A program made the translations under genes and the position numbers. The notes beneath the pieces are model-generated. The model ran no database searches. It was not told the DNA's origin and saw only the letters and a list, made by a program, of their open reading frames with translations. A stretch of 33,239 bases of DNA from Thermodesulfovibrionia bacterium (GTDB taxonomy: Bacteria; Nitrospirota; Thermodesulfovibrionia; UBA6902). The DNA is taken from the NCBI GenBank assembly GCA_020053105.1, contig JAGVNU010000104.1, positions 1 to 33,239 of the forward strand, in the 5' to 3' direction. Below are positions 30,659 to 33,239 of this stretch, one piece after another; within the stretch, counting starts at the first letter, position 1; every line of letters starts with the position of its first letter.

Positions 30659-30742
30659 TTCCCGACAAGGCCAAACCTTCATGGAAGGGGCGGAAAGCAG
30701 CGGGTCTTCTATAAGCTAAAGACAGCCGGGCTGCCGAAGGAA
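30659..30742 (+). ncRNA. GEMM-I (cyclic di-GMP-I) riboswitch aptamer
   Basis: The conserved core is clear: GACAAGGCCAAACC, hairpin CCUUC-AUG-GAAGG, GGGGCGGAAAGC, then P3 (GCAGC with GCUGC; distal GUCUU with AAGAC) and closing AGCCGGGCUGCCG. P1 is UUCC (30659-30662) with GGAA (30739-30742). Against the Vibrio Vc2 aptamer as I recall its numbering, the G20 and C92 ligand contacts are kept, which favours cyclic di-GMP over cGAMP, while the G21-C46 pair appears swapped to C-G. The GAAA tetraloop of Vc2 P2 is absent. It lies about 70 nt before an exported protein gene. Confidence 0.87.
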
Positions 30743-30777
30743 ACAAAGCCTTTGGAAAGTTCGGCTTTTTTATTTTT
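30733..30777 (+). terminator. Riboswitch-associated intrinsic terminator
   Basis: GCCGAA (30733-30738, the 3' end of the aptamer) pairs perfectly with UUCGGC (30760-30765), followed by UUUUUU-A-UUUUU. A nested alternative pairs AAAGCC (30745-30750) with GGCUUU (30763-30768). The first form uses aptamer bases, so ligand binding and termination would exclude each other, which predicts an ON switch. The second form would not compete. A GGAGG site and the start codon follow 35 nt downstream. Confidence 0.65.
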
Positions 30778-30813
30778 CCAGATATAAAAGGATAAAAGGG
30801 CACGGAGGAATAT

Positions 30814-31437
30814 ATGAATAAATTAAAATCACTAATCAAAAGAAACAGAAAAGTTTCACACGGGTTAGTCCCCATATTTTTGTGGTTTGCCATGCTCGCA
30901 GGGATAGCTGCAATAAATATAACCGCCGTACAGGCCGGACCAATAGTCCATGCTGCAGAAGGAGACGATTGGCGCTATTTTAAAGGGACAATAAAGCCGC
31001 CGTATAAATGGACCCAAGTTGATTTTGACGACAGCAATTGGCTGAAGGGCTTGACCGGCTTCGGGTATGGCAATAGCAGAAGCAGGACTTACCTGGATGA
31101 TATGAAGGGCAATTACTCCACTGTCTATGCCCGCCGTCAGTTTACTATTAACAATATGTATGCAGTTTCCAGGATAAACCTTTCAATATTGTGTGACGGG
31201 GCTTTTATCGCATACCTCAATAGCGTAGAAATTATTCGTAATGATGCGATCAACAAATCCGCTTCAACACAAACTCCGCCGGCAGAACAATTAGATATCA
31301 GCGGTTTTATACATGAGCTTTTCCCCGGTAAAAACGTTTTGTCTGTAGAGTGCAATAACGATGATATAAGCAGTGAGGATTTTTTATTTATCCCTGTCTT
31401 CGAAGTTCTTGAACATAAAGGAGGCCAAATACAATGA
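30814..31437 (+). CDS. Exported stand-alone jelly-roll-like domain protein
   Basis: A 207-aa secreted protein. A basic N-terminus and hydrophobic segment end in AVQA at about residue 42. The mature part has DDWRYFKGT, then VDFDDSNWLKGLTGFGYGNSRSR, a strand YARRQFTINN and LSILCDGAFIAYLNSVEI, a pattern of galactose-binding-like beta-sandwich domains. The same pattern (DTWKYNG ... YDDSGWSTGSGIFGYG) occurs at the C-terminus of the next gene product. GGAGGA precedes ATG, and its stop overlaps the phosphatase start (ATGA). It is the first gene under the riboswitch. The ligand and exact family are not identified. Confidence 0.82.
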   Translation: MNKLKSLIKRNRKVSHGLVPIFLWFAMLAGIAAINITAVQAGPIVHAAEGDDWRYFKGTIKPPYKWTQVDFDDSNWLKGLTGFGYGNSRSRTYLDDMKGNYSTVYARRQFTINNMYAVSRINLSILCDGAFIAYLNSVEIIRNDAINKSASTQTPPAEQLDISGFIHELFPGKNVLSVECNNDDISSEDFLFIPVFEVLEHKGGQIQ

Positions 31438-33239
31438 AAAACAATAAATGGCCAAATATAAATAAGAAATGGATACATCGGTGTTTACGTTCAACAATAA
31501 ATATCTTTCTCGTTTTTATTTTGTTCCTCTTGATACCCGGCAAGGCAGAGGTCTATGGAGAGAATGCAAAGTATATTATTCTGATGATATCAGACGGATG
31601 GGGAGCTAAACATATCGAGGCAACGAACACGTATACCGGGACAATTCCACTCTATCAGGGCGGACCGAATTGGACCAGACACTGGATGTCAACGTTTTCT
31701 CATGGGGGCAGTTATAATACTGCCCAAGCATGGTCGGATTTTAATTATGCAATGACAGGTTATGGAGACAGCGCGGCTTGCGGGACTTCTCTTTATACCG
31801 GCTTCAAAACTGCTAACGGCCGAATCACCGTCTCGGCAGATGGGTCAACCGCCTTCTTATCGATAGGGGAACGGGCAAAAGAATTTGGCAAGGCTGTAGG
31901 AGCTGTCAGCACGGTCCCTGTTTCACATGCCACTCCGGGAGCATGGGTAGCCCATAACGATGATCGCGGCAATACCTTTGCCATTGCAGACGAGGGCCTT
32001 TTTGGGGACCCAAACACCACGGGGACCATTGCAACAGACATAAAGTATGGCGGAGGACATGGACCGACAATTCCGCCGGTGGATGTCCTTATCGGCGCAA
32101 GCGGTACGGGTTATGTAAGCAGTCAGATCCTCACTAAATTGAGAAACGAAACCAGCCAGCCGGGCAAGCATGCTCTTGTCGAACGGCAGGCAGGAGTTGA
32201 TGGCGGAGACGCACTGATGGCTGAAGCCAATGATCCGGCCACCAGCAAATTAGCAGGATTATTTGATCAGGTCTATCATAATGCCAACGATGCAGGATAC
32301 AACCCTGAAAATCCAACCCTTTCTGAAAGCGCACTGGCAGCATTAAAGGTACTGAGCAAAAACCCAAACGGTTTTGTACTCATGATTGAAGGCGGCGCTG
32401 TTGACTGGGCCTCCCATGCAAATAATATGAACCAGATGATAGGAGAACAGAGAGACTATGATAATGCTGTCCAAACTGTAATCCAGTGGGTAGACGACCC
32501 TGCTAACGACAGTAACTGGAATAATACCCTCGTTATTGTGACCGGTGATCACGAGTGCGGCTATCTTACTAAAGCTCCCGGCGTATTTCCAAACCAGTCA
32601 CTAGGCGTTGTAAACAGTACAACCCTCGCTAAAGAGATAATAGTGTCCGGCACCGGGGGCCGTCGTGCAAGCTGGGAGGACACCAATAGTAACAATATTA
32701 TTGACGCGGGTGAAACAGTATACTGGCAATGGAACAGTGGAGGACATTCCAACACACTGATCCCTCTGTATGCACGAGGTGCAGGATCTGAACTGATATC
32801 AGACTACGTCACAAGAGGGCCGGATTCTATACGCGGGTATTATCTTGATAATACAGATGTGTTTCTGGTCATGGCCAGCGCCATTTCCGGCCAGAGCTGC
32901 ACTGAAACTGGTACTGTTTCGATAAGCCCGGGGCAGACACTTTCCGGTAACCCGATTGATCTTACGTCAATAGTTCAAACAGGCAATGCTGCAAATGTAA
33001 ACTACACAGTTACTGAAACCGGCGGATGTCCAGTCCAGACCAATGCTTCAATCATCACTAAACGGGACACATGGAAATATAACGGGGCCGACAACGGCAA
33101 CATCGGGACCACATGGAAAAATACCGGATATGATGACAGTGGGTGGAGTACAGGCAGCGGAATTTTCGGATATGGAGAAACCTATATTAATACTCCCATC
33201 GGCGCACCCGGTCAGATGTCAGTATACTTCCGTAAAACA
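31434..33239 (+). CDS. Alkaline phosphatase with C-terminal jelly-roll, partial at window end
   Basis: 602 codons are open from ATG to the window edge; the 3' end is missing. A signal segment (about residues 20-42) precedes an alkaline phosphatase domain: metal ligand D54 in ISDGWG, nucleophile S113 in GYGDSAACGTS, E319/D324/H328 in IEGGAVDWASHANN, D372/H373 in TGDHECG, and H438 in SGGHSNTL. After about residue 480 comes a linker domain (TVSISPGQTLSG ... NYTVTETGG), then from residue 545 a copy of the jelly-roll domain found in the preceding protein. It should release phosphate from organic esters outside the inner membrane. GGAGG lies upstream of ATG. Confidence 0.92.
   Translation, partial: MKNNKWPNINKKWIHRCLRSTINIFLVFILFLLIPGKAEVYGENAKYIILMISDGWGAKHIEATNTYTGTIPLYQGGPNWTRHWMSTFSHGGSYNTAQAWSDFNYAMTGYGDSAACGTSLYTGFKTANGRITVSADGSTAFLSIGERAKEFGKAVGAVSTVPVSHATPGAWVAHNDDRGNTFAIADEGLFGDPNTTGTIATDIKYGGGHGPTIPPVDVLIGASGTGYVSSQILTKLRNETSQPGKHALVERQAGVDGGDALMAEANDPATSKLAGLFDQVYHNANDAGYNPENPTLSESALAALKVLSKNPNGFVLMIEGGAVDWASHANNMNQMIGEQRDYDNAVQTVIQWVDDPANDSNWNNTLVIVTGDHECGYLTKAPGVFPNQSLGVVNSTTLAKEIIVSGTGGRRASWEDTNSNNIIDAGETVYWQWNSGGHSNTLIPLYARGAGSELISDYVTRGPDSIRGYYLDNTDVFLVMASAISGQSCTETGTVSISPGQTLSGNPIDLTSIVQTGNAANVNYTVTETGGCPVQTNASIITKRDTWKYNGADNGNIGTTWKNTGYDDSGWSTGSGIFGYGETYINTPIGAPGQMSVYFRKT

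Follow-up and report, generated by a model that had tools for sequence, protein, structure and literature searches.

A GEMM-I riboswitch with a swapped 21–46 pair in a Thermodesulfovibrionia bacterium is an ordinary member of a common C21–G46 subfamily

Upstream of a putative secreted-protein gene in a Thermodesulfovibrionia bacterium lies an RNA element resembling the GEMM-I (c-di-GMP-I) riboswitch, in which positions 21 and 46 beside the ligand pocket read C and G where Vc2 has G and C. A first-pass annotation proposed that the swap may mark a natural variant whose affinity or choice of ligand is shifted. A search of the whole 33,239-nucleotide stretch of DNA analysed (the window) with Rfam model RF01051 gave a match covering the whole model at 30660–30738 on the forward strand (48.6 bits against a cut-off of 35, E-value 9.9e-7; 73.1 bits with our custom model R1), the sole RNA match at gathering level in the window. 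In Vc2 numbering, the Rfam alignment places the conserved G20 at 30670, C21 and C22 on the 5' side of the P2 base at 30671 and 30672 (paired with 30693 and 30692, respectively), G45, G46 and A47 at 30692, 30693 and 30694, and the conserved C92 and C93 at 30734–30735, with the P3 helix spanning 30696–30732 (Rfam match and fold). The GEMM-I pocket residues G20, A47 and C92 are all present, A47 being the conserved intercalating adenine (371 of 372 aptamers have A immediately 3' of position 46), the standard pair that closes P2 beside the pocket is present as C–G, and the set of core nucleotides is complete, as are both P2 base pairs. The element is a genuine GEMM-I riboswitch, with the strong core and the retained G20 and C92 that had been read from its sequence at first sight, and an ordinary member of a common subfamily.

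The Rfam alignment contains no gaps across AAGGCCAAACC and GGCGGAAAGC, the two strands of the P2 base, and the swap is therefore real. Among relatives, AAAGCCAAACC occurs with CGGAAAG and is equal in length to AAAGGCAAACC, which occurs with CGCAAAG, and positions 21 and 46 covary perfectly in a 32-sequence alignment (19 C–G, 13 G–C, no mismatches). An inserted C with G retained at position 21, which the first-pass annotation had named as a case that would undo its claim of a compensatory change, is ruled out by the covariance alignment and the same-length relatives, since G21 would then face G46; the RF01051 alignment of positions 20, 21, 46 and 92 that it had called for returned G20, C21, G46 and C92.

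The pair 21–46 is C–G in 175, G–C in 120 and non-standard in 2 of 297 distinct GEMM-I aptamers, drawn from the element's own genome with its relatives, a Geobacterales-rich set and a set of other groups, so that C21–G46 is the more frequent orientation in the surveyed set, with some sampling bias towards it. The own genome and relatives (61 genomes), selected independently of the C21–G46 pattern, contributed 136 distinct aptamers (71 G–C, 63 C–G, 2 others). The Geobacterales-rich set (14 genomes; 39 C–G, 24 G–C) and the other-groups set (32 genomes, 29 with a match; 73 C–G, 25 G–C) were reached by that pattern and sampled in favour of higher-scoring matches, and their proportions are biased as a result. 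Six GEMM-I RNAs, three of them with C21–G46, occur in the element's own genome, which comprises 3.27 Mb in 124 contigs and is 83% complete. A scan for C21–G46 across 84,980 species genomes found at least 116 stretches in records of widely differing names, which among the matches listed included Desulfobacterota, Geobacteraceae, Nitrospirae, Campylobacterota, gammaproteobacteria and others; in viral contigs the two orientations accounted for just 4 and 1 stretches, and these contigs were left out of the survey. At such frequencies, both in the survey and in its own genome, the swap does not set the element apart as a special variant. Alignments of the relatives (A2, A3) also contain a C22·A45 mismatch beside the pocket, possibly a protonated wobble, in 9 of 63 C21–G46 and none of 71 G21–C46 aptamers.

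A FastTree phylogeny of 277 aptamers, inferred with positions 21 and 46 masked, required 7 changes of 21–46 orientation, against a mean of 68 and a minimum of 60 after shuffling, and one split parted the two orientations with 88% accuracy. The 16 tips closest to the window aptamer are all C21–G46 and all have an overlapping terminator. As the masked tree still groups the RNAs by orientation, C21–G46 marks an old subfamily, and the swapped pair is most likely a trait of that subfamily which keeps the base of P2 paired, not an oddity. The known cGAMP-sensing riboswitches belong to the same large subfamily, and we take the Geobacter cGAMP riboswitch crystal structure to have the same C–G pair at 21–46. 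All 24 A20/C21–G46 RNAs sit in a clade with 137 G20/C21–G46 RNAs and one G21–C46 RNA; the GEMM-Ib type of the Geobacterales set, nested inside the C21–G46 clade, combines A20, C21–G46 and U22·G45 in 20 of 20 sequences, consistent with the lower P2 GU pair U15–G38 of pilM (PMC9262584).

The fold of 30660–30775 contains an intrinsic terminator at 30724–30771 on the forward strand, whose 5' arm includes the 3' strand of P3 (30724–30732) together with C92 and C93, whose 3' arm ends at 30766 and whose U-tract spans 30766–30771, so that terminator and aptamer overlap in sequence. This fold has a free energy of −39.9 kcal/mol, against −28.8 kcal/mol with the aptamer enforced, and in the predicted structures the two are mutually exclusive and C92 is sequestered. 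The same exclusivity characterises pilM, in which ligand switches expression ON, whereas in Cd1 terminator and aptamer can coexist and ligand switches expression OFF (PMC9262584). A probable ribosome-binding site (GGAGGA, 30804–30809) precedes two putative regulated genes on the same strand, the first (30814–31437) encoding a 207-residue protein with an N-terminal signal-like stretch and no match in a Pfam search, and the second (31434–33239) an alkaline phosphatase (PF00245, E-value 5.3e-48) cut off at the contig end at 33239. From this layout we infer that in the unliganded RNA C92/C93 and the P3 3' strand would enter the terminator and transcription would stop, and that ligand, by stabilising the aptamer, would block the terminator and allow the secreted protein and the alkaline phosphatase to be made. 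With both G20 and C92 retained, the ligand is more likely to be c-di-GMP. To this reading, a C21–G46 GEMM-I member acting as a transcriptional ON switch for the secreted protein and alkaline phosphatase with c-di-GMP as the likelier ligand, we assign a probability of roughly 0.8.

The gene pair recurs in the same genome on contig C61 (phosphatase fragment 81% identical), preceded there by a decayed GEMM-I element (L486, 1293–1374; 25.8 bits with R1) whose 3' half is intact and whose core is degraded, and which gave no match at E ≤ 1 in an Rfam search. This relic supports the view that riboswitch and operon were already associated in an ancestor; no riboswitch was detected next to the other homologues examined. 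Two further GEMM-I RNAs of this genome (L004 and L005) precede CxxCH-rich (cytochrome-like) genes, with a start codon 20–33 nt past the aptamer and no terminator, and translational control is possible there.

Terminator layout was compared among G20 RNAs with a terminator called by a simple heuristic caller, which erred, for example, at L003, where the 'separate' terminator falls within a coding region. Terminators overlap the aptamer in 105 and are separate in 15 of the C21–G46 RNAs, against 8 and 55 for G21–C46 (Fisher p = 4e-24; p = 1e-16, 7e-6 and 2e-4 within three groups), values that overstate independence because the tree offers few independent contrasts (3 concordant, 1 reverse, 3 equal), for which reason shared ancestry is the conservative reading. 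Among the relatives, 48 of the 50 C21–G46/G20 RNAs for which a terminator was called show the overlap. Random exchange of platforms mostly removed the contrast (71 vs 35 and 37 vs 36). The tree suggests that the link between orientation and layout largely reflects shared ancestry, not cause. Orientation nonetheless predicts terminator layout, and hence the probable switch direction, from the aptamer alone, and this correlation is the most interesting by-product of the survey, the window element by itself being ordinary. We did not meet the link in the literature searched, outside which key papers of 2008–2017 lie, and it may already be known.

Among the host's 28 GGDEF matches is L303 (contig C92, 1480–2397), an apparently single-copy protein of 305 residues with REC-like and GGDEF domains and Ser at the GGDEF selectivity position (Hypr type). 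Its best PDB match is 6d9m, the GGDEF domain of G. metallireducens GacA (E-value 1e-46; next match 2.4e-33), with which it shares a GHLxGS motif, making it a candidate GacA-like cGAMP synthase. The L303-type DNA motif is present in 40 of the 61 genomes, a spread that, together with L303, makes cGAMP plausible in the cell and, as far as sequence can tell, suggests cGAMP signalling in this class. A second GGDEF match (L314, contig C11, 48028–48279) combines GS with GGDDF, the motif of the active GSU1937 (PMC8835794), and is possibly a second Hypr enzyme. As a predictor of C21–G46 riboswitches across the 61 genomes, presence of a Hypr cyclase performed weakly (p = 0.06).

One broad scheme would have two old GEMM-I lineages distinguished by 21–46 orientation, C21–G46 mostly ON and G21–C46 mostly OFF; GEMM-Ib would have arisen within the former, and members with G20, the window element among them, might read both messengers in hosts with a Hypr cyclase; we offer it tentatively and consider it unlikely as a whole. 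A narrower proposal, that the element's preferred ligand is 3',3'-cGAMP or that it responds to both cyclic dinucleotides, with C21–G46/G20 RNAs in a cGAMP regulon, could appeal to the GacA-like and GGDDF-bearing cyclases, to the position of every GEMM-Ib-type Geobacterales aptamer within the C21–G46 clade and to a published account in which position 20 contributes to selectivity without acting as a hard filter (PMC9262584), but it is quite improbable given the retained G20, the weak association with the Hypr motif and the behaviour of A20 across the survey. The GEMM-Ib (cGAMP) class is recognised by A at position 20, which is G in the window aptamer. Among the relatives, A20 is depleted in C21–G46 aptamers (2 of 63, against 11 of 71 with G21–C46; p = 0.02), 11 of 13 A20 RNAs thus having G21–C46, while in the Geobacterales set it is enriched (20 of 39 against 6 of 24; p = 0.06). 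With A20 found in both orientations and the association running in opposite directions in the two groups, the swap is not a marker of ligand specificity; the suggested shift in affinity or ligand preference is not supported, and 21–46 orientation should not be taken as a sign of altered specificity. Elsewhere in the survey, L163, L165, L166, L175 and L212 (G054) and L030 and L210 (G051), several of them clustered on one contig, have A20, G21–C46 and G48, that is, AGA instead of AAA at 47–49; lying outside the C21–G46 lineage, they are candidates for an independent change of ligand preference.

The less usual feature of the window aptamer is the loss of its GNRA loop, not the swap. Folding shows that the upper P2 stem (CCUUC/GAAGG, 30676–30688) carries an AUG triloop (30681–30683) in place of the GNRA tetraloop that docks on P3, as the first-pass annotation had seen in noting a missing GAAA. 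Such loops are common without being universal, occurring in 66 of 80 C21–G46/G20 aptamers by folding, and were for that reason not treated as defining GEMM-I. The triloop probably removes the tetraloop–receptor contact and may lower affinity; in Cd1, the tetraloop mutant A24-26U abolished binding (PMC9262584). The aptamer-length fragment alone folds no better than shuffled sequences (z 0.67). The lost loop, an A·G mismatch in P3 (30699–30729) and the clear relic at the paralogous locus could together indicate an element in decay that has lost ligand binding. We consider this very improbable, as the core nucleotides, both P2 base pairs and the overlapping terminator are all intact, P3 pair 44–82 is frequently left unpaired across the family (in 14 of 32 aptamers), and L242 (G032), the nearest neighbour on the tree, also lacks GNRA but keeps its core and overlapping terminator; L242 and the window aptamer may form a minor branch from which the tetraloop was lost.

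Least credible is the idea that 21–46 orientation itself tunes ON versus OFF and so explains its link to terminator layout: this pair is the most informative on layout among 20 aptamer pairs (excess MI 0.352 bits, next 0.243), still predicts layout inside the classes of the next-best pair and is associated with it in each of the three groups, but orientation changed just ~7 times on the tree, the independent contrasts give no support to the swap as a cause of switch direction, an overlapping terminator can form with either aptamer type in the swapped-platform controls, and shared ancestry is the simplest reading.

An ordinary C21–G46 GEMM-I member, probably an ON switch, can be set beside the known systems. 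The c-di-GMP-I-GGC model (RF03167) scores the window aptamer above RF01051 (56.9 vs 48.6 bits, under permissive filters and short of its own cut-off of 59), but that model has G21–C46 and a GNRA loop, whereas the window aptamer has C21–G46 and lacks GNRA. It resembles Vc2 and Cd1 of RF01051 in its core, G20, A47, C92, P2/P3 architecture and location upstream of a secreted-protein operon, and differs in having C21–G46 instead of G21–C46, an AUG triloop and a terminator that overlaps the aptamer, where the Cd1-like terminator is separate. From GEMM-Ib (Geobacter pilM, Gm0970) it differs in G20 instead of A20, C22–G45 instead of U22·G45 and the absence of GNRA, while sharing with it the C21–G46 pair present in all 20 GEMM-Ib-type sequences found, the overlapping-terminator ON layout and a very similar 3' half.
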